A stretch of 21,080 nucleotides of DNA, taken from positions 1 through 21,080 of the IMG/VR virus record IMGVR_UViG_3300028735_000042. One strand, written 5' to 3'. The notes under the pieces were generated by a model. The model was not told the origin of the DNA. It saw only the letters and a program-made list of their open reading frames with translations, and made no database searches. Position 1 is the stretch's first letter, and every line of letters begins with the position of its first letter. Below are positions 6,519 to 20,742 of this stretch, piece by piece. The position numbers were made by a program, and so were the translations under genes. This DNA comes from a virus.

Positions 6519-7754
6519 CTACGACGCGATGCGGACCGAGAACTGAGGAATCAGCACGGCCCAGCCGTAAAGCACATCGCAGCGGGTGACGAAGGCATCG
6601 TTGGAGATGTCGTACTGGGACACGATGCGGATGCTCATGCCGGTTTCCTTGTCGGTGGAGCGGGCCGCGAAGGCCACGCCCTCGGGCATTTCGAGCGGGA
6701 CCATGGCCAGGGCGAAAGCCTCCCGGTGGAAAGCCAAGCCCTGCGGACTGGCCTTGCCGGCGATGGAAGACTGCTGAGCGGCGGCCTGCCCGAAGACGCT
6801 GATCAGCGCTCCGCTGGCCGGAGAACCAGAGCAGTTCTTATACGGGCCGGTGGGAGTCAGAGCGGGAGCGATGGGAAGCGCCGCGTTTCCGGAGGCATCA
6901 GAGGAGACGTCGGCCGTCAGGACCCACTGAGCGAGATCCTGCAAATGGTCTCCGGATACCGGATTGACAGCGTACACGCCGGCGAACTGGATGATGTCAC
7001 CCTTCTTGAGCCGGGAGGCGGCCGCCGCGGTCCATCCGTTGGAGTTGATCGTCGCGCCGGTCTGGCCGGCGCCGTTCACCGCCGGAGTCCCGCCCAGGGG
7101 ACCCACGGTGTGGGTGCGGACGTTCTGGTCCATGATCCAGTCGAAGCCCGCCGCGGTGCCCATGCGGCCCTTCTCGTACTGGCGCTTGATCTGCGGCGCC
7201 GAGTTGAGCAGGCCCTTGAGACCGTCAATGATCTCAGTCTGCATGTCGGGACTGATGACCACCGAGCGGTTATCATCGGCCGGACAGCTCATCTTGTCCA
7301 GCCAGGCGCCCGCCTGGTTGTAGGTCTTCAGGGCGTTGGGGATCGTGCCCGGAGTGCCCACCACGTTGAAGGTGGACTGATAAGCCAGGCTCAGCCCGTC
7401 CACATCGACGACGTTGGCCAGAGCCACGGCGGCGCTGTTCAGGTAGCGTTCGCCAAAGCGGTCGATGGTGAGGGTGCGGTCCTTGGACGTGAATTTGAAG
7501 CCAACGTGCTTCTGCTTGTTAATCACCAGAGGCACGCTGACCTCTTCGACATCCTGCACGACGAGGGTCGCGCCGTCAGAGGCCGCGAACTTGACCGGCA
7601 CACGCAAATTCAAGGTGTCGCCGATCTTGCCGCCCGTGACCGCGAAACGGTCATCGTACTCGTGACGGACGGCGGAAGCGAATCCGAGGTTGTTTTTGAA
7701 GCGCCGCAGCAGTTCGTTGGAGATGATCTGCGGCGTAAGCAGCGTTTGAGACAA
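6519..7754 (-). CDS. Major capsid protein, P22 coat type
   Basis: A 411-residue protein, close to the 430 residues of P22 gp5. The start is TTG at 7754 (reads LSQTLLTPQIISNELLRRF), supported by AAGGA eight bases upstream that lies in the last codons of the scaffold gene. Characteristic P22-coat-type stretches are 'KIGDTLNLRVPVKF', 'FKFTSKDRTLTIDRFGERYL', the central 'RLKKGDIIQFAGVYAVNP' of the insertion domain, and 'AFALAMVPLEMPEGVAFAA' with 'SIRIVSQYDISNDAFVTRCD' near the C-terminus. It forms the icosahedral shell on the scaffold. The gene follows the scaffold by three bases and precedes a hairpin-rich gap, consistent with separate control of this most abundant product. Confidence 0.92.
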   Translation of the reverse strand: MSQTLLTPQIISNELLRRFKNNLGFASAVRHEYDDRFAVTGGKIGDTLNLRVPVKFAASDGATLVVQDVEEVSVPLVINKQKHVGFKFTSKDRTLTIDRFGERYLNSAAVALANVVDVDGLSLAYQSTFNVVGTPGTIPNALKTYNQAGAWLDKMSCPADDNRSVVISPDMQTEIIDGLKGLLNSAPQIKRQYEKGRMGTAAGFDWIMDQNVRTHTVGPLGGTPAVNGAGQTGATINSNGWTAAAASRLKKGDIIQFAGVYAVNPVSGDHLQDLAQWVLTADVSSDASGNAALPIAPALTPTGPYKNCSGSPASGALISVFGQAAAQQSSIAGKASPQGLAFHREAFALAMVPLEMPEGVAFAARSTDKETGMSIRIVSQYDISNDAFVTRCDVLYGWAVLIPQFSVRIAS

Positions 7755-7757
7755 GGG

Positions 7758-8732
7758 TTATTTCCTTTTCAATTGCGCGTTCCTGGCCCGCTCCCAGGCG
7801 TTGTAGTCCCCGGCGAGGCTGGGGTCGTAGATGCTTTTGGCCGGGGCTCCTGTGCCAGGTTTCACGGGAGTGATGGGTTTCGGTGCGCGGGTTAAGTTGG
7901 GTTTCGGTTTGGGAGCAGAAGCGAGGCTGGCTTCAATCCGCCCGATCTCGCGCGCGATGGCGATGGGCGAGGCAAGCCCGGCGATGCGCTTGGCTTCGGA
8001 GCGGTTTTTGGCAAGAAAGTAGGCGATCTCCGGTCCGCGCTCCGACTCCAGGATGGCCGCCTGCATGGCTCCGGGGAGGGGCACGTCGTCGGCGTCCGAC
8101 AGAACCTCGTCGTAATCAGGATGGGCTCTCCTGGCCTCTTCCTGCCGGTTCTGCCAGGCCGCCAGAGCCTCTTGCCGGCGCCGTTCGGCCTCGCGCTGCC
8201 TTTCGGCTTCGAGCTTCTGACGCTCGCGCTGTTCCAGCTTCCATTCCGTGAGGGCTTCGGAAAACTCCTCATAGGTCTCGAAGTCTTCCGGCTTCGGTTT
8301 CCCCTCAGGGGATGAATCCGGCTTGGCCGCCGCCGTGTCCGTTCCAGACGCCTTTTCTCCAGCCGGAGCATTTCCGGCCAGACGGGCTTCCAGCTCCGAG
8401 ACGCGGGCCGCGAGCTCGTGCTTTTCGCGGGTCAGTTTGTCGATGCGCTTCTGGTATCCGCCTTTTCGCTTGGGGGGATTCGGGGCCTCATCTTCCTTGG
8501 CCTCCGGCTCCTGCTCCAGATCTTCTTCCGGGGATTCCGAGTCCCCGACGCTTTCGGCCGCCGGCGCATCCGCCGAGGCCTCGGAGGAAAGATCCTGTTC
8601 GGGTGTATCGGAGGAATCCGAATCCGGTTCCCCGCCGGTCTGGTCTCTCCAGGCGATGTACTCGTTGTAGTCGTCCGGAGGCGCAGATTCCGGGGTCTCG
8701 GTCTGAGGATTCGTATCTTCGTCTTTGTTCAT
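7758..8732 (-). CDS. Scaffolding protein-like, P22 gp8 position
   Basis: A 324-residue, highly charged protein with the organisation of a phage scaffold: a long acidic, Ser/Glu/Pro-rich disordered N-terminal part (residues 1-85), a coiled-coil 'GGYQKRIDKLTREKHELAAR' onward (about 91-118), a second very polar helical segment (about 150-200, many Glu/Arg), and a basic C-terminal tail (NAWERARNAQLKRK), as used by P22 scaffold to bind coat. The start ATG at 8732 has a strong AGGAG four bases upstream. It sits between portal and coat as in P22-like phages. Assignment rests on position and composition rather than on a strong sequence motif. Confidence 0.8.
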   Translation of the reverse strand: MNKDEDTNPQTETPESAPPDDYNEYIAWRDQTGGEPDSDSSDTPEQDLSSEASADAPAAESVGDSESPEEDLEQEPEAKEDEAPNPPKRKGGYQKRIDKLTREKHELAARVSELEARLAGNAPAGEKASGTDTAAAKPDSSPEGKPKPEDFETYEEFSEALTEWKLEQRERQKLEAERQREAERRRQEALAAWQNRQEEARRAHPDYDEVLSDADDVPLPGAMQAAILESERGPEIAYFLAKNRSEAKRIAGLASPIAIAREIGRIEASLASAPKPKPNLTRAPKPITPVKPGTGAPAKSIYDPSLAGDYNAWERARNAQLKRK

Positions 8733-10837: not shown

Positions 10838-11578
10838 TCAGCCCATCATCCAGGAGCCCCCTCCGGGCTCGAATGAGACCAACACGTTGCGTTGCTGCGG
10901 TGCGGCGGGCTTGGACTGGAGGATCTCGGTAAGAGACATCTCCAGATACCGGGTGGCGTCCAGCAGGTGATCCCGGTCTTTGACGACCCGCCCCTTTTCA
11001 TCCCGCCTGTAGAGGCGGAACTCTTCCAGCCAGTTCCGCAAGCTGGAGAAGACCTTCAGGCGGCCGGAACTCAGGCGTTGCCACAGCCTGTAGATCCCGG
11101 TTTCCACGGAATTGTCGGCGACGTGGAGCTTCAGGCCCAGTTCGGTGTACATCTGGAGCAACTGGCGGCCATCGACCTGACTCCTTCCCCGGGCCGCCGG
11201 GTCGATGGCTCCGTGAATCCATTCCCCCCTGGAGCGGATTGCCTGAGCGTGGACGCTCGGCTCAGCCTCTCCCCGGTAATGCTCGCTGTAGAGGTAGAGC
11301 ACATCGGTATCCCGGTTCAGGGCGCCCCAGACGGCAGCCGTGCGGTTCCAGGCAACGTCCAGGCCGTAGGCCCTGGGCCAATGCTCCGGCAGGGGGAAAT
11401 CCCCCACTGTAATGTCCGATTCAGGCACCGGGTAGATGGCTCCGGACCCAAGCGACGGAACTCCCCGCGAGCGGGCCTCGCGCTGATAAGGCGGTATGGA
11501 CTGCCAAAGCTCGCGCTTGACCTCCTCGGACAGATGGGGCGCATCATCCCAGGTAGCCAGGCAAACAAAGCGTGAAAT
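10838..11578 (-). CDS. Terminase large subunit, C-terminal nuclease half (separated)
   Basis: This frame is open from just after a TGA (11597-11599) and reads EPEGCAISRFVCLATWDDAP then HLSEEVKRELWQSIPPYQ, the segment that normally follows the ATPase domain in one polypeptide. The RNase H-like nuclease is complete: 'AYGLDVAWNRTAAVWGA' with the first Asp, 'GAIDPAARGRSQVDG', and 'KDRDHLLDATRYL' with the last acidic residues. There is no in-frame ATG or TTG near the start. An ATT at 11576-11578 lies eight bases after a strong GGAGG and is my choice, while a GTG at 11428 would delete conserved sequence. It either functions as a separate polypeptide pairing with the ATPase half or marks an inactivated terminase. 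Confidence 0.8.
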   Translation of the reverse strand: MSRFVCLATWDDAPHLSEEVKRELWQSIPPYQREARSRGVPSLGSGAIYPVPESDITVGDFPLPEHWPRAYGLDVAWNRTAAVWGALNRDTDVLYLYSEHYRGEAEPSVHAQAIRSRGEWIHGAIDPAARGRSQVDGRQLLQMYTELGLKLHVADNSVETGIYRLWQRLSSGRLKVFSSLRNWLEEFRLYRRDEKGRVVKDRDHLLDATRYLEMSLTEILQSKPAAPQQRNVLVSFEPGGGSWMMG

Positions 11579-11596: not shown

Positions 11597-11728
11597 TCAC
11601 TTGCTCCAGCGGGCAAGCAAGTACCCGAGGCAGACGAAAGCCGCCATCGGAACGACAACAGCCAGGCCAACCACCAGGAGCGCAGCCGAAACCAGCGTTT
11701 CACTTACGTGCAGGATCATCATTTTCAT
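11597..11728 (-). CDS. 43-aa membrane protein lying between the terminase halves
   Basis: ATG at 11728 overlaps the TGA that ends the ATPase half (ATGA), and the TGA at 11597 is immediately followed, in the same frame, by the nuclease half. The sequence is MKMMILHVSETLVSAALLVV then GLAVVVPMAAFVCLGYLLAR and WSK: one long hydrophobic stretch (residues about 12-38, possibly two short helices around Pro27) and a basic C-terminus. Removing the 131 bases 11597-11727 would join '..FLPGGRPPQ' to 'EPEGCAISRF..' in frame, so this gene appears to be an insertion within an ancestral terminase gene. Function unknown; a holin-like or regulatory micro-protein is possible but unsupported. Confidence 0.55.
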   Translation of the reverse strand: MKMMILHVSETLVSAALLVVGLAVVVPMAAFVCLGYLLARWSK

Positions 11729-12455
11729 TGCGGCGGACGGCCTCCCGGGAGAAAAGCCAGTACGACCTCGCTCAATCCCTGGAGCGGCGTAAAGGTAAGC
11801 ATGAGCAGGCCGCCGGTGGTCATGGTCCGCAGCAGGCACTCGGTGTAGATGTCCATGGGAGGCTCCTCATCGAGCCAGACCAAGTGCTGCTCGGTTCCCT
11901 GAAAGGCTTCCCTTCGCTGGTCGTAACTCTTCAGCACCAGGGTCGAGTGATCGCCGGCAGCGTGCCGCACGTAGACGATCTCGACAGCATCCCGGATGCC
12001 TTCTCTCCGGCGGGGCTCTCCCAGAATCAAATCCCCGGGGATCATCCCGGTTCCCCACTTGCCCATGGGGCCGAGGAGTTTCTCCTGGATAATCTCCCGG
12101 ACGGTCTTGGAACTGTCTCCGGCCGCCCACGCCCTGATGCCTCTCGGGAAGCGATGTCCCTCCCACCAGGCGGGATAAATGCCCGTGAGATGGCAGGTCA
12201 GCTCATAGGCGCCTACCCCTTCGGTCTTGCCGATCCGGTTGGCGGCCAGCATCAGCCGTTCGCGGTGGGGAGATCCATCGCAGTCCGGCGGGCAGCCAGG
12301 CATGGGCTTGTGGTTCCCGCCGGCGCGGAAAAACTCCATGTGCTTCGGATACAGTTCGCGCCGGAGCGGACCCTGTTCGGGGTAGTAGCGCAGAATCTTG
12401 TTCCGGGCGCGCCTCCGGGCTTCCCTCTCGATGTCAGCCAGAGTATAGGGCTCAA
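11725..12455 (-). CDS. Terminase large subunit, N-terminal ATPase half (frameshifted start, truncated)
   Basis: The packaging ATPase domain is clear: Walker A-like 'ANRIGKTEG', then 'CHLTGIYPAWWEGHRFPRGI', 'WAAGDSSKTVREIIQEKLLG', 'TLVLKSYDQRREAFQGTEQH', Walker B 'VWLDEEPP' and coupling 'LLMLTFTPLQGLSEVVLAFL'. The conserved sequence begins before the only in-frame ATG (12339): upstream codons read LEPYTLADIEREARRRARNK and ILRYYPEQGPLRRELYPKHM, yet contain no ATG, GTG or TTG. A TTG at 12455 overlapping the small-terminase stop (TTGA) is the natural start but is one base out of frame; one extra C in the CCC at 12448-12450 would give MSPYTLADIERE. The product stops at 11725 before the nuclease. 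Either a lesion, a sequence error, or recoding. Confidence 0.75.
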
Positions 12456-14442: not shown

Positions 14443-15051
14443 CTACCCGCAAGCCCTCCGAATTTTCACGTCCGGGCTGGGTTTTTTTTCGAGATGCCGG
14501 CTGGTGAGCCTCGAAAATTTTGCTTTTGCCCGGGACTTGAGCAGCCGGAAGCTGGTGGCAGAAAGGCACATCTCTGCCTGAATCCGCTCGGCAGGTTGAT
14601 TTTCGACGTAGAAGCGCACGAGGACCTCCCGGTCGGCTGGGCGCAACTCGTTCAGAAGCTTGGCCATGATTCCTGCGCGCTCGTTTTCCCATACTTGCCG
14701 TTCGGGATCGTGGCGGTCGTCTACGGGATCTTCGGAGAGATCTTCGAGGGCGGTGAGGCGATTCCTCGCGCTCACCGCCAGGCCGATGACCTTGGCCATG
14801 GTGTTCTTGAGCGTTCCGAAGATGTAACCGGGAAGAGCCTCCGGCTGCCTTACCCGGCATTCGCGAATTGCCATAAGGACGGCGATATAGACATCGTGAG
14901 CGCGATCATCGGCATCTTCCCGGTTGCCGATCCTGCGCAGGAGATACCAGCGGACCGTGCGTTGCATGAAGAGATATAGCTCCTCTTCCGCACAGGGCTC
15001 TCCGGCCTGGATGCGTTCCACCAAGCCTGTCCAATCAGAGCCGGAAGTCAC
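14443..15051 (-). CDS. ECF-like RNA polymerase sigma factor, phage-encoded
   Basis: A 202-residue sigma-70 family protein. Region 2 spans residues about 8-90: 'LVERIQAGEPCAEEELYLFM', 'YLLRRIGNREDADDRAHDVY' and 'GYIFGTLKNTMAKVIGLAVS'. Region 4 spans about 140-190: 'LRPADREVLVRFYVENQPAE' then 'RIQAEMCLSATSFRLLKSRA'. Region 3 is missing, as in ECF factors. The 'MxLxxTxFRLLKSRAKAKF' ending is one I associate with Acidobacteriota sigma factors, which is the best clue to the host. ATGA overlap with the upstream gene (15048-15051) indicates coupled expression. Likely redirects host polymerase to phage (late) promoters, though a host-derived moron is also possible. Confidence 0.85.
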   Translation of the reverse strand: MTSGSDWTGLVERIQAGEPCAEEELYLFMQRTVRWYLLRRIGNREDADDRAHDVYIAVLMAIRECRVRQPEALPGYIFGTLKNTMAKVIGLAVSARNRLTALEDLSEDPVDDRHDPERQVWENERAGIMAKLLNELRPADREVLVRFYVENQPAERIQAEMCLSATSFRLLKSRAKAKFSRLTSRHLEKKPSPDVKIRRACG

Positions 15052-17435: not shown

Positions 17436-17698
17436 AGCGCCCTCCCGGACTCGCGGAGATAACGCCGCCGGCGAGCTTGCCAGGAACGGTCCGCGGGATT
17501 GAGGTCCCGATGGAGCACATCGGAGAGTGAGGCGCCGGCGGCCAATGCCTTGGCCTGCTGGATGCCGATACGGCGCCGGCACCCGGGCGCCACTTCGAGC
17601 GCAATGCGCCCGCAGTCCACGTATAGCGGCGGGATGCGGCCGGCTTTTCTGGCAGCGAGCAGCCCGCGGTACATTTCCAGTTCCTCATCGAGTCTCAT
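17432..17698 (-). CDS. Hypothetical basic protein, 88 aa
   Basis: ATG at 17698 overlaps the stop of the replication gene (ATGA at 17695-17698), which fixes the start inside a much longer open frame. The sequence MRLDEELEMYRGLLAARKAG is helical, followed by 'RIPPLYVDCGRIALEVAPGC', a basic helix 'RRRIGIQQAKALAAGASLSD' and a very basic C-terminus (RSWQARRRRYLRESGRAL). No known domain is seen. As a small basic protein coupled to the replication initiator it might assist replication; this is inference. Confidence 0.6.
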   Translation of the reverse strand: MRLDEELEMYRGLLAARKAGRIPPLYVDCGRIALEVAPGCRRRIGIQQAKALAAGASLSDVLHRDLNPADRSWQARRRRYLRESGRAL

Positions 17699-19146
17699 TG
17701 GTACGCCTCCCGGGTCAGCTTTCCGGGCCGGGAAACTACCGGCTTGGAGGGAGCGGCCACGGCGGAACGGGATTCGCGAAACTCCTCCCAGCTCATCAAA
17801 TCGAGACGCTGTTCCAGGAGGCTCCTGGCCCCCTGTTCTGCCGCGAGATTGCACTGTGGCTCGGGAAGGTCCGGGCGGATGCTGCGGATCTTGGCAGCGC
17901 ATTGGGAGACCAAGTCCGAAAATTCGGCCGGCCGGGCTGCGATCTCGGCGGCGATTCGTGATTCCCGGTACTCCTCGAATTCGGCGCGCAACCGGAGATC
18001 GTCGCCGGCAGTGGACTGATTGGCGGGTTGCGGCATCGGGATGAGGTGAGGCGAGCGAAAGACCTTCGGGACGCTGACCAACAGGAATCCAACCGGATTC
18101 TTCTTGTAGTGAGCCAGGGGGCCTTTGCGCTCGACCACGGCCATGACCTGCTCGACGGTTGCGGAGGGGTCCAGTTCGCGGCAAGCGGAAAAGAGCCGTT
18201 CGGCGGCCTCCAGATCGGCTGGGCCGTAGTCGTTCAACAGCGCCGCAAGTTTGAGAATGGGGTTCCGTTCCGGGGTTTGATCGTTCGTCGTCGTCGTCGC
18301 TGTGGGGTTCCCTTCTACGATAGAACCTGACGACGACGATACTCTCTCTCTTTTCTCTGTAGTCAATAATGATGCGGTTGTCTGTACAAGGTCGAAATCG
18401 GACTTTGTACAAACTCCGTTCTGGGTTTGTACAGAGAAATCGAACGTTGTCTGTACAAACTTTTCGACCACCGGCACGATCGCGTTGATCCGCTCGCGGC
18501 GATCGTCGTTGGGGGGCTGCTTCGCCCGGGCCGGGTGCTCCTCGCGAATTTTCTTGAGCCCAAACTCGCGAAATAAGGTATCCTGTCTTTGAGTGAAGAC
18601 GATGCGAACACTGGCGGTGAAGTCGGCGATCAGCGATTTCTCGAGCCTTTCTTCGCTTTCCTTTCGCCTAAGGAATTTCTCACGTAATTCAGGTGACAGT
18701 TCCTTTATTTGCTTAAGGATATAGGTAGGCAAATTGTCTGTACAGACAATTTTGTTCGCCTCATCTTCGCCTTTTTCAGATACCGATTCGGGCAATCTGA
18801 CGTCTCCGCAGATGCGGAGGCGGTTTCCCTCCCGCTTCACCCTCCCCTCGACTTCCAGCTCGCGCCATGCGCGGTAGACGTTGGCGACGTCCATTCCGAG
18901 GTCGGCCGCGGCGTGTTGAAGGCCGAGAGCGTGTCCGTTTTGGTCCACGGCGTGGGGCGAGCGGTATCCCTGCCGGATCGTTCTGGACAGCATCCACGCC
19001 CATAGCCTCAGCTTCGGAGCGTAACGCTGGTCCTGGTAGGTCAAATACTGGTCCGGGGGAATCGGATCGTACCCCCTCGTCGATCCGATCATGCGCATCA
19101 GATCGACGTTCTGCTGCTGGCTGTTGCCATTTCCGTTGGCGCTCAT
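17695..19146 (-). CDS. Replication initiator-like protein (phage O-like) containing the candidate origin
   Basis: A 483-residue protein from ATG at 19146 with GGAGG six bases upstream. Residues about 40-115 form a winged helix ('LRLWAWMLSRTIRQGYRSPH' ... 'DLGMDVANVYRAWRELEVEG RVKR' in outline), as in initiator proteins. Residues 120-270 are polar and probably flexible, and here the DNA carries TGTACA repeats that encode recurring V-Q/C-T (residues 230-256). The C-terminal part (about 285-480) is helical: 'NPILKLAALLNDYGPADLEA', 'GPLAHYKKNPVGFLLVSVPK'. Position in the early operon, winged helix and intragenic repeats parallel lambda O, whose gene contains the origin. No helicase or loader is seen nearby. 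The O-like role is inference. Confidence 0.6.
   Translation of the reverse strand: MSANGNGNSQQQNVDLMRMIGSTRGYDPIPPDQYLTYQDQRYAPKLRLWAWMLSRTIRQGYRSPHAVDQNGHALGLQHAAADLGMDVANVYRAWRELEVEGRVKREGNRLRICGDVRLPESVSEKGEDEANKIVCTDNLPTYILKQIKELSPELREKFLRRKESEERLEKSLIADFTASVRIVFTQRQDTLFREFGLKKIREEHPARAKQPPNDDRRERINAIVPVVEKFVQTTFDFSVQTQNGVCTKSDFDLVQTTASLLTTEKRERVSSSSGSIVEGNPTATTTTNDQTPERNPILKLAALLNDYGPADLEAAERLFSACRELDPSATVEQVMAVVERKGPLAHYKKNPVGFLLVSVPKVFRSPHLIPMPQPANQSTAGDDLRLRAEFEEYRESRIAAEIAARPAEFSDLVSQCAAKIRSIRPDLPEPQCNLAAEQGARSLLEQRLDLMSWEEFRESRSAVAAPSKPVVSRPGKLTREAYQ
18286..18460. other. Candidate phage replication origin
   Basis: Within the initiator gene, three elements adjoin: an inverted repeat of CGT/ACG triplets (18286-18299 with 18329-18340), a CT-rich tract (ACTCTCTCTCTTTTCTCTGT, 18341-18360), and four regularly spaced TGTACA repeats (18378-18460). 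The surrounding sequence is less GC-rich than the rest of the window. This is the layout expected for an iteron-type origin; no experimental evidence. Confidence 0.5.
18378..18460. repeat. Four TGTACA iterons spaced 22-24 bp
   Basis: TGTACA cores begin at 18383, 18406, 18428 and 18452, giving intervals of 23, 22 and 24 bases, close to two helical turns. Flanks are similar: TTGTCTGTACAAG, TTTGTACAAA, TTTGTACAGA and TTGTCTGTACAAAC. The regular spacing places all sites on the same DNA face, as for an initiator-bound iteron array. Confidence 0.75.
18731..18752. promoter_or_regulatory. Perfect 22-bp palindrome containing the iteron core
   Basis: The sequence AAATTGTCTG followed by TACAGACAATTT is a perfect 22-bp palindrome whose left half is the same TTGTCTGTACA found in the iterons about 270 bp away. 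It is in the 5' third of the initiator gene (residues 132-139). It may be a high-affinity dimer site of the same protein, for example for autoregulation or origin looping. Confidence 0.6.
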
Positions 19147-19159
19147 TGTGCGCCTCCGG

Positions 19160-19180
19160 AAGTACTATTGCGAAGTACTG
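19160..19180. promoter_or_regulatory. AGTACT direct pair upstream of the initiator gene
   Basis: AGTACT occurs at 19161-19166 and 19174-19179, just upstream of the initiator Shine-Dalgarno. The stretch AAGTACTATTGCG matches AAGTACCATTACG at 15432-15444 in 11 of 13 bases, both upstream of minus-strand genes. Possible shared operator. Confidence 0.3.
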
Positions 19181-19494
19181 GACGTTCCATCTGTAGCTTT
19201 TCTCCTGGGTTGCTTGTACTCTCTAAGTGAACAAAGACAAAAGTGGCTGCGAATGTTGGCCGAGCCGGGACGAATTCGCAGGAGGCGGCGTTGGCGAAGC
19301 TGCTGAGCGGCCTGGTAGGTGCGGTAGAGAGACATTCCGGTGGCCTCGGCGAGGCTCCGGAAGCTGGCCTCAATCAGCAGGTTGTTGGCTTGAATCGCCG
19401 CCGACCACAGATACAAGAGAAGGCGCAGTTCGCCATTCTTGAGCGTGCCGGCGATACGGGCCAGCTCTTCGAGAACACGTTCAGCCGAGAACAT
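19165..19494 (-). CDS. Winged helix-turn-helix protein, early gene
   Basis: A 109-residue protein starting MFSAERVLEELARIAGTLKN with a strong ribosome-binding site (GGAGAGGAGC four bases upstream). Residues about 20-75 read 'GELRLLLYLWSAAIQANNLL' 'IEASFRSLAEATGMSLYRTY' 'QAAQQLRQRRLLRIRPGSAN', a standard winged helix with an 'ASFRSLAEATGMSLYRTYQA' recognition unit, as in replication initiators and small phage regulators. The C-terminus is basic and disordered. It lies 18 bases upstream of the initiator-like gene, so it may regulate replication or the early operon. Not an obvious CI or Cro relative. Confidence 0.7.
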   Translation of the reverse strand: MFSAERVLEELARIAGTLKNGELRLLLYLWSAAIQANNLLIEASFRSLAEATGMSLYRTYQAAQQLRQRRLLRIRPGSANIRSHFCLCSLREYKQPRRKATDGTSSTSQ

Positions 19495-19762
19495 AGTGCT
19501 CCTCTCCGGGCGGGTTCTGGTACTTGCCAGAGGCGCTCGGGAAGGGGCACACTAAATGCGCAACGGGCGTCATCCCCGGAAGGGGCTTGGCGTTCGCTGT
19601 CTCCTCTGGCGTGGTCAGTTCAGAGCTTTGCGGCCGTGCAATCTTGCCGGATTCTAGCGGTCGCAGAGTTCCGGGTCGCGTCGGAGGCGCACTAATCGGA
19701 CCGTATAATTTGAGACTATACGGGACCGAATTAGGGCCTCCGTCTTCAGGTAAAACCCCCAT
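19481..19762 (-). CDS. Possible first gene of the early operon, unknown
   Basis: A 93-residue ORF from ATG at 19762 with a good AGGAG seven bases upstream; its end overlaps the ribosome-binding site and start of the next gene by 14 bases. The product (MGVLPEDGGPNSVPYSLKLY onward) is Pro, Gly and Ser rich with no clear secondary structure and no recognisable domain. The region also carries the large inverted repeat 19692-19734, which argues for a regulatory rather than coding role. Real gene or leader ORF remain equally plausible. Confidence 0.4.
   Translation of the reverse strand: MGVLPEDGGPNSVPYSLKLYGPISAPPTRPGTLRPLESGKIARPQSSELTTPEETANAKPLPGMTPVAHLVCPFPSASGKYQNPPGEEHYVLG
19692..19734. promoter_or_regulatory. 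Long imperfect inverted repeat with 9-bp spacer next to integrase
   Basis: The left arm 19692-19707 (CTAATCGGACCGTATA) and the reverse complement of the right arm 19717-19734 (CTAATTCGGTCCCGTATA) agree except for one extra base and one or two mismatches; the inner seven bases (CCGTATA/TATACGG) are perfect. The spacer is ATTTGAGAC. A plus-strand TATAAT (19704-19709) lies inside, though without a good -35. It may be an integrase core site, a promoter/operator between integrase and the early operon, or both. Confidence 0.55.
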
Positions 19763-19797: not shown

Positions 19798-20742
19798 GTG
19801 CTCAGCATGCGGAGAATTCAGGATCGGTACATCGAGCTTGGTGAGCTCAAGAATCTGGTAGCACGCTACGTGCGTGCTGAAAGATCTGTGAGCACGCGGA
19901 GAAACTATGAGGCCGACTGGAACATGCTGCGCGCATGGTGCCAGTCGTCGGGCCGGGAGTTCCCTCCGTGCGGAGAAACCATCACGCTGTACTTCGCATA
20001 CCTGCTTTCCTGTGGGCATAAGGTGTCTTCCGTAAACCGGAGGCTTTCTTCGTTTCGATACTACTTCAGACAGCAGGGACTCCCTGTGCCAGACCTGAGC
20101 GTGGCTGCGGCATTGCTCGCCGGCGCGAGGCGCGAGCTGCGCCAACGGCCGAAGAAAGCGGGAGCCTTTTCCACCGCCCAGCTCTCGCAGATGTGCGCGG
20201 CGCTCGGCAGACGGCCCATCGACATTCGTGACCGTACCATTCTCGTGCTCGGATTCGCCTCCGGCCTGCGGGCCTCCGAAATGGCCGCCCTCGACATGGA
20301 TGACGTCGCCTTCCACGACGCAGGCATCGTTATCACCATCCGCAGATCGAAGACCGATCAGGAGGGCAAAGGACGGATGATCGGCGTGTTTCGAGGGGAG
20401 GGAGAACTTTGCCCGGTAGAGGCATTGGCGGACTGGCTGGAGATCCGCGGAGCGCACCCCGGGCCGCTGATATGGGGATGCAGCCGCTCGCGCCTGCGGC
20501 CCGGCCGGCGGATCTCCTGGGAGGTCGTGCATAAAGCGGTCCGGCGCGCCGCAGCCGCTATCGGACTCGATCCGCTCCGGTACGGCGCCCACAGCTTGCG
20601 GGCTTCGTTTGTTACCGCCGCGGCAGCCCGCGGAGCGCATCCCATCGCCATCATGCAGGTGACAGGACACAAGAACGTCGCCACGGTGGCCGGCTACATT
20701 CGCCCGGACGTATTCGCGTTCAAGACGGCGCGAGCCTTGTAG
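19798..20742 (+). CDS. int: Tyrosine integrase
   Basis: A 314-residue tyrosine recombinase, the only clear plus-strand gene. The N-terminal SAM-like core-binding domain (residues about 15-115, 'SVSTRRNYEADWNMLRAWCQ') is followed by the catalytic domain with all expected residues: Arg158 in 'ASGLRASEM', Lys185 in 'RRSKTDQ', His265 and Arg268 in 'AHSLRASFV', His291 in 'TGHKN' and the nucleophile Tyr300 in 'VAGYIRP'. The start is GTG at 19798 or ATG at 19807; neither has a strong ribosome-binding site. It lacks a long arm-binding domain, so it is of the short XerC/D-like type. It faces away from the early operon and marks the phage end. Expected to catalyse integration and excision. Confidence 0.95.
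   Translation: MLSMRRIQDRYIELGELKNLVARYVRAERSVSTRRNYEADWNMLRAWCQSSGREFPPCGETITLYFAYLLSCGHKVSSVNRRLSSFRYYFRQQGLPVPDLSVAAALLAGARRELRQRPKKAGAFSTAQLSQMCAALGRRPIDIRDRTILVLGFASGLRASEMAALDMDDVAFHDAGIVITIRRSKTDQEGKGRMIGVFRGEGELCPVEALADWLEIRGAHPGPLIWGCSRSRLRPGRRISWEVVHKAVRRAAAAIGLDPLRYGAHSLRASFVTAAAARGAHPIAIMQVTGHKNVATVAGYIRPDVFAFKTARAL

Follow-up and report, generated by a model that had tools for sequence, protein, structure and literature searches.

We read a 483-residue protein encoded by a viral genome as a phage replication initiator whose gene has a lambda-O-like origin at its centre; the protein would bind there as a dimer, with DNA unwinding and helicase recruitment following at the same place. 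We put the probability of this reading at roughly 0.8. The virus record analysed is 21,080 bases long and is called the window here; the predicted initiator gene occupies 17695-19146 on the minus strand, where it is supported by 11 homologues and contains the origin-like DNA. Protein binding, unwinding, helicase recruitment and use as an origin are predicted from the sequence comparisons and structural modelling described below.

The window encodes P22-type podovirus head proteins (portal, coat and small terminase), and an integrase gene lies near one window end (19798-20742, plus strand), 0.65 kb from the initiator reading frame. Similarity to the large terminase is distributed over a 204-residue frame followed by a 196-residue frame (11725-12339 and 10838-11428, minus strand), and this gene may be split by a frameshift, an intron or a sequencing error. 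A sigma-70-like factor with regions 2 and 4 is encoded at 14443-15051 (minus strand). Searches of Pfam, PHROGs, NCBIfam and PDB gave the 483-residue protein no significant match, protein searches of phage and plasmid collections gave zero matches, and none of six of its peptides scanned against viral contigs was matched. Of the neighbouring reading frames tested, most are without any match and none was recognised as a helicase or loader gene. Directly upstream of the initiator gene, a 109-residue frame (19165-19494, minus strand) shows weak similarity to RepL, HTH_36 and O-like proteins (E 0.012-0.26); this small winged-helix candidate was ruled out as a conserved partner, the frames upstream of the relatives' genes being without homology.

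The hexamer TGTACA occurs at 18383, 18406, 18428 and 18452, with spacings of 23, 22 and 24 bp, entirely within the 483-residue frame, reproducing the spacings given in an earlier sequence-only reading of this DNA. In gene order, and with DNA elements given without strand, the array consists of site 1, GTTGTCTGTACAAACTTT (18446-18463, core 18452-18457), site 2, TGGGTTTGTACAGAGAAA (18422-18439, core 18428-18433), site 3, GGACTTTGTACAAACTCC (18400-18417, core 18406-18411), and site 4, GTTGTCTGTACAAGGTCG (18377-18394, core 18383-18388), each identified by the TGTACA count, the family comparison and a weight matrix. A fifth TGTACA, absent from that reading, lies at 18739, some 290 bp from the array towards the gene's 5' end, and forms the centre of a solitary perfect 22-bp palindrome, AAATTGTCTGTACAGACAATTT (18731-18752, core 18739-18744). 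Only these five good sites were found across the 21-kb window by the family-derived position weight matrix. TGTACA is present eight times in the whole window against 1.09 expected, a count that 0 of 100 shuffles reached, and five times in the initiator gene against 0.32 expected when the protein and its codon usage are held fixed. The excess within the gene is thus not explained by the protein sequence. Because the site spacings are not multiples of three, the four array sites are read as V-Q three times and as C-T once, which are the recurring peptides that had been noticed at the repeats.

Relatives were obtained through both DNA and protein. A scan of viral contigs with the pattern TGTACA-N15-19-TGTACA-N15-19-TGTACA returned 119 stretches, most of which looked AT-rich or low in complexity by eye, and yielded contig L128 (GC 0.60), whose array lies inside a reading frame homologous to the 483-residue protein (phmmer 2e-27). 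This divergent homologue, missed by the protein searches, was retrieved through the DNA pattern alone. L128 also contains a sigma-factor-like frame (7251-8069). The peptide motif DPxPPDQYL, taken from the window and L128 pair, led to L246, L247 and the Bryobacterales MAG contig L253, a second peptide motif to L286 and L287, and a profile search of 257 Bryobacterales genomes to L265-L268 and L276; TGTACA played no part in the motif and profile searches. Together with the window protein, the 11 homologues make a family of 12. A phylum-wide sample of 396 genomes, searched at a stricter threshold, returned only the already known member, and the family therefore looks concentrated in Bryobacterales. 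The portal and capsid relatives of the window (L003-L029) are without the 483-residue gene over the extent of their contigs, which suggests that the replication module is swapped independently of the head genes; L128, for its part, has a terminase and portal set different from that of the window. The integrase was abandoned as a route to relatives since mostly its conserved catalytic stretch was matched, and a genome-contig scan with a capsid alignment gave no matches.

The solitary site is present in exact or near-exact form in 11 of the 12 family members, the exception being L268. All ten members with a complete region, a count that leaves out L287 as cut by a contig end, also possess the array, with 3-4 recognisable sites (five in L265) spaced mostly 21-24 bp apart and situated 254-326 bp further on in the gene than the solitary site. 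The array of L246 has two exact sites with a degenerate one between them. The homologues share only about 25-40% identity, yet the sites are kept, and they fall in codon phases 0, 1 and 2; the solitary site of L246 is in a changed phase and encodes G-C-V-H-S, not V-C-T. When synonymous codons were permuted within each gene, 4.3 occurrences of TGTACA were expected in the family against 38 observed, the largest excess among all 4096 hexamers (z 18.4). The 473-residue frame of L268 contains no TGTACA and no other repeated 8-mer above shuffles, and it also lacks the C-T and V-Q-T peptides; a decayed locus or sites located elsewhere are two possible reasons. The shuffle excess, the use of three codon phases and the joint absence of sites and peptides in L268 show that selection acts on the DNA of the sites. 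The sequence-only reading had proposed just this, expecting repeat positions to be conserved while amino acids vary, as is now seen across the family; relatives that lack the repeats and retain the peptide, which it had named as counter-evidence, were looked for, and the opposite was found in L268.

Around the fixed TGTACA core, the six-base arms of the sites vary between phages, for example ATTGTC in the window and L286, AAGGTT in L253, GGGCTG in L246, GCTGTT in L276 and TAACTC in L266. The two arms of the solitary sites are mutually palindromic at 44 of 60 positions (null 24.6 +/- 4.4; 0/5000), and the array arms are also palindromic beyond chance, with 44 of 5000 permutations reaching the observed value. 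Solitary-site arms are closer to the array arms of the same phage than to those of other phages (0/20000 permutations), in a test that is not fully independent given that the phages are related to different degrees. Such a match within each phage is expected if one dimeric phage-encoded protein reads both the solitary site and the array. The correlation between recognition helix and arms (Mantel r 0.29, p 0.04; partial p 0.09) is only suggestive.

An AlphaFold model built with a seven-member alignment predicts that the protein begins with a winged-helix DNA-binding domain (residues 31-115; 18802-19056, minus strand), as had been proposed for the gene that contains the repeats. The domain has the three-helix HTH (helices 44-56, 76-83 and 87-99) and the beta wing (strands 103-106/109-112) of a winged helix, and it superposes on a CRP-family winged helix with a Z of 9.8 and an rmsd of 1.6 Å over 69 residues. 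This single predicted winged helix is followed by long helices, the model of the remainder having a low pTM: a helical middle domain (residues 141-235; 18442-18726, minus strand) lies between two linkers, its last residues overlapping array site 1, and a C-terminal helical domain (residues 294-464; 17755-18267, minus strand) is the proposed point of helicase or loader recruitment. The low-confidence stretches are mainly residues 121-136 and the predicted disordered linker at residues 237-291 (18274-18438, minus strand; pLDDT 25-32 over most of its length), which holds most of the array, the low-stability tract and an inverted repeat. The first linker ends in residues encoded by the solitary palindrome; in or at the edge of the second lie the array (residues 230-255, approximately), the low-stability tract (approximately 259-275) and the inverted repeat. 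The DNA elements are thus placed where the protein tolerates change. Foldseek searches against PDB and BFVD returned nothing below E 0.001; replication initiators and replisome organisers are among the weak matches to viral proteins.

The candidate unwinding element (18321-18370) adjoins the array and is of low stability. It contains the CT tract noticed earlier, a pyrimidine run at approximately 18340-18361 (CTCTCTCTTTTCTCTGTA) that makes the coding strand of the window purine-rich (ATTATTGACTACAGAGAAAAGAGAGAGAG). The 50 bp after the array are within the least stable 0-5% of the gene in 10 of 10 relatives tested (3% in the window); in 8 of 10, the single least stable stretch of the gene does not follow the array but is located at or next to the solitary site. 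The triplet (TCG/CGA) inverted repeat that had been described beside the array, TCGTCGTCGTC / GACGACGACGA (18285-18339; arms 18285-18298 and 18329-18339), is likewise present inside the frame. It was rejected as an essential origin part and is probably optional, because post-array inverted repeats, with arms of 11-17 bp, were found in only 5 of 10 relatives, that of L247 being built of TGGC tetranucleotides. A degenerate half-site (CTACAGAGA / TACAGAGA, coding strand) at 18354-18363 within the low-stability tract recurs in L128 and L247 and perhaps adds a weak site to the unwinding region. The end of the 48,404-bp contig of L247 (L294, last 130 bases) repeats 130 bp of its post-array hairpin region (L292:506-635) at 99% identity and diverges before the C-terminal part of the gene, reflecting either an assembly break at a repeat or a recombination variant at the origin. 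GC skew showed no clear switch at the gene in the 48-kb relative or in a 33-kb contig.

In the mechanism we propose, a winged-helix dimer would bind each palindromic site, contacting the fixed TGTACA core and the phage-specific arms. About four such dimers, two helical turns apart, would wrap the DNA into an O-some-like complex, which may open or distort the low-stability purine/pyrimidine tract beside the array; recruitment of the replicative helicase, directly or via a host loader, could then fall to the C-terminal domain. The solitary perfect palindrome would be a strong site for the same protein, serving autoregulation or looping to the array.

The main rival to an origin is that the sites are operators without origin function, the winged-helix protein being a regulator of the early operon, or of itself, whose array and palindrome silence or roadblock transcription. 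The winged helix does resemble those of CRP and MarR regulators, as the solitary palindrome does a classic dimer operator. An origin, however, better fits a conserved array of about four sites placed deep in the coding region at two-turn spacing and followed by a low-stability tract, and with its two further domains the protein greatly exceeds a simple repressor in size. Sigma-70 promoters and terminators around the gene did not exceed chance, and the scan of 18200-19700 revealed no sigma-70-like promoter, although acidobacterial promoters may not fit such a scan. We therefore regard pure operator function as unlikely. Lower still is our estimate for a partition (centromere-like), packaging or integrase arm-type site that lies in the gene by chance. 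Sites of these kinds can hold arrays of short palindromes, and the integrase gene is close by, but the TGTACA sites track the 483-residue gene through unrelated phages, including L128 with its different terminase and portal set, whereas relatives in head genes are without the gene. The array is always inside the initiator gene at a fixed position, and no partition ATPase was recognised beside it in a non-exhaustive search. That the repeats are a by-product of V-Q-T and C-T peptides selected in the protein is refuted by the synonymous shuffles and next to impossible: the seven members aligned all have C135, and V-Q-T is seen repeatedly in several relatives, but the sites encode different peptides in three phases, as the solitary site of L246 illustrates, and the array region is predicted to be disordered.

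The origin reading may extend to a wider set of proteins. Residues 290-370, approximately, of the window protein (the KNPVGFLLVSVPKVF region) match seven Bryobacterales proteins (L269, L270, L271, L272, L273, L274 and L275) that have other N-terminal parts. Most of their genes contain palindromic repeats of their own above the synonymous-shuffle expectation, including AGGTGCACCT in L269, CTACCAAA/TTTGGTAG in L270, AGGTAGCC in L273, AACACCCACGG in L272 and CCTGTCACC in L275. The case for these repeats is weaker because most keep a constant phase per orientation; they hint at an initiator class in which the DNA-binding domain and the in-gene iterons change together. We suggest, tentatively and at somewhat less than even odds, that mobile elements of Bryobacterales (Acidobacteriota) carry self-contained initiator-origin genes in which a shared, probably helicase-recruiting C-terminal domain is combined with a swapped cassette of DNA-binding domain and linker iterons, under solitary-palindrome control. 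If this is true, the solitary palindrome in a second linker adds a built-in feedback or looping control that the lambda origin lacks.

The window gene and its relatives in Bryobacterales, an acidobacterial order, would form a sequence-unrelated counterpart of the lambda O/ori arrangement, which suggests that the in-gene origin is a recurrent solution. It also suggests that placing the origin within the gene keeps initiator and sites together through recombination. The iteron itself served as a search handle and brought up a homologue where protein searches of viral contigs, phages and plasmids had failed. Paired data on recognition helices and palindrome arms across the family offer a test of how origin specificity evolves, and the gene might serve as a minimal replicon in a phylum for which genetic tools are few.

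The lambda origin lies in the middle of the O gene and consists of four dyad-symmetric 19-bp iterons, bound by O dimers, with an AT-rich region adjacent (PMC7466680). As annotated, these iterons are 20, 24 and 23 bp apart and fall at about residues 117-145 of the 299 in O, against 24, 22 and 23 bp in the window; lambdoid versions with six iterons occur in P27/933W. The two systems share about four dyad-symmetric sites in the middle of the initiator gene, between two domains: the DNA-binding domain, whose coding sequence precedes the array, and another functional domain, here predicted, that follows it. In both, the sites are specific to each phage type (PMC7466680). The AT-rich region of lambda has a candidate counterpart in the low-stability tract that adjoins the array, the minimum of the gene being at the solitary site in 8 of 10 of the present relatives. 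The resemblance to lambda O in the sequence-only reading holds in these features, namely about four palindromic sites some 22 bp apart followed by a low-stability tract, a predicted disordered linker and a winged helix, as does its view that repeat and initiator both differ from lambda's. The site here has an invariant TGTACA core, the protein has one more helical domain, encoded ahead of the array, and a conserved solitary palindrome is situated 254-326 bp upstream of the array in the other linker. No P-like loader gene was recognised among the neighbouring frames tested, and the relatives lie in Bryobacterales. Homology to lambda O was not detected (hhalign probability 1.8%), the best match of a family member to an O-like PHROG had an E of 0.17, and a literature search for TGTACA together with iteron found nothing.

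In some Gram-positive phages (SPP1 gene 38, Tuc2009/TP901-1 rep), too, the repeats of the origin lie in the coding sequence of the initiator or adjoin it; no such family is among the matches. Initiators of iteron plasmids (RepE/RepA/pi) are winged-helix proteins that act on repeats of about 20 bp next to an AT-rich region, but their iterons usually lie beyond the gene, where monomers that have two winged helices bind them, whereas here one winged helix is predicted, the sites are palindromic and inside the gene, and no plasmid matches were obtained. Taken together, the best reading of the gene is an in-gene phage origin of the lambda-O type that stands outside the O family by sequence.
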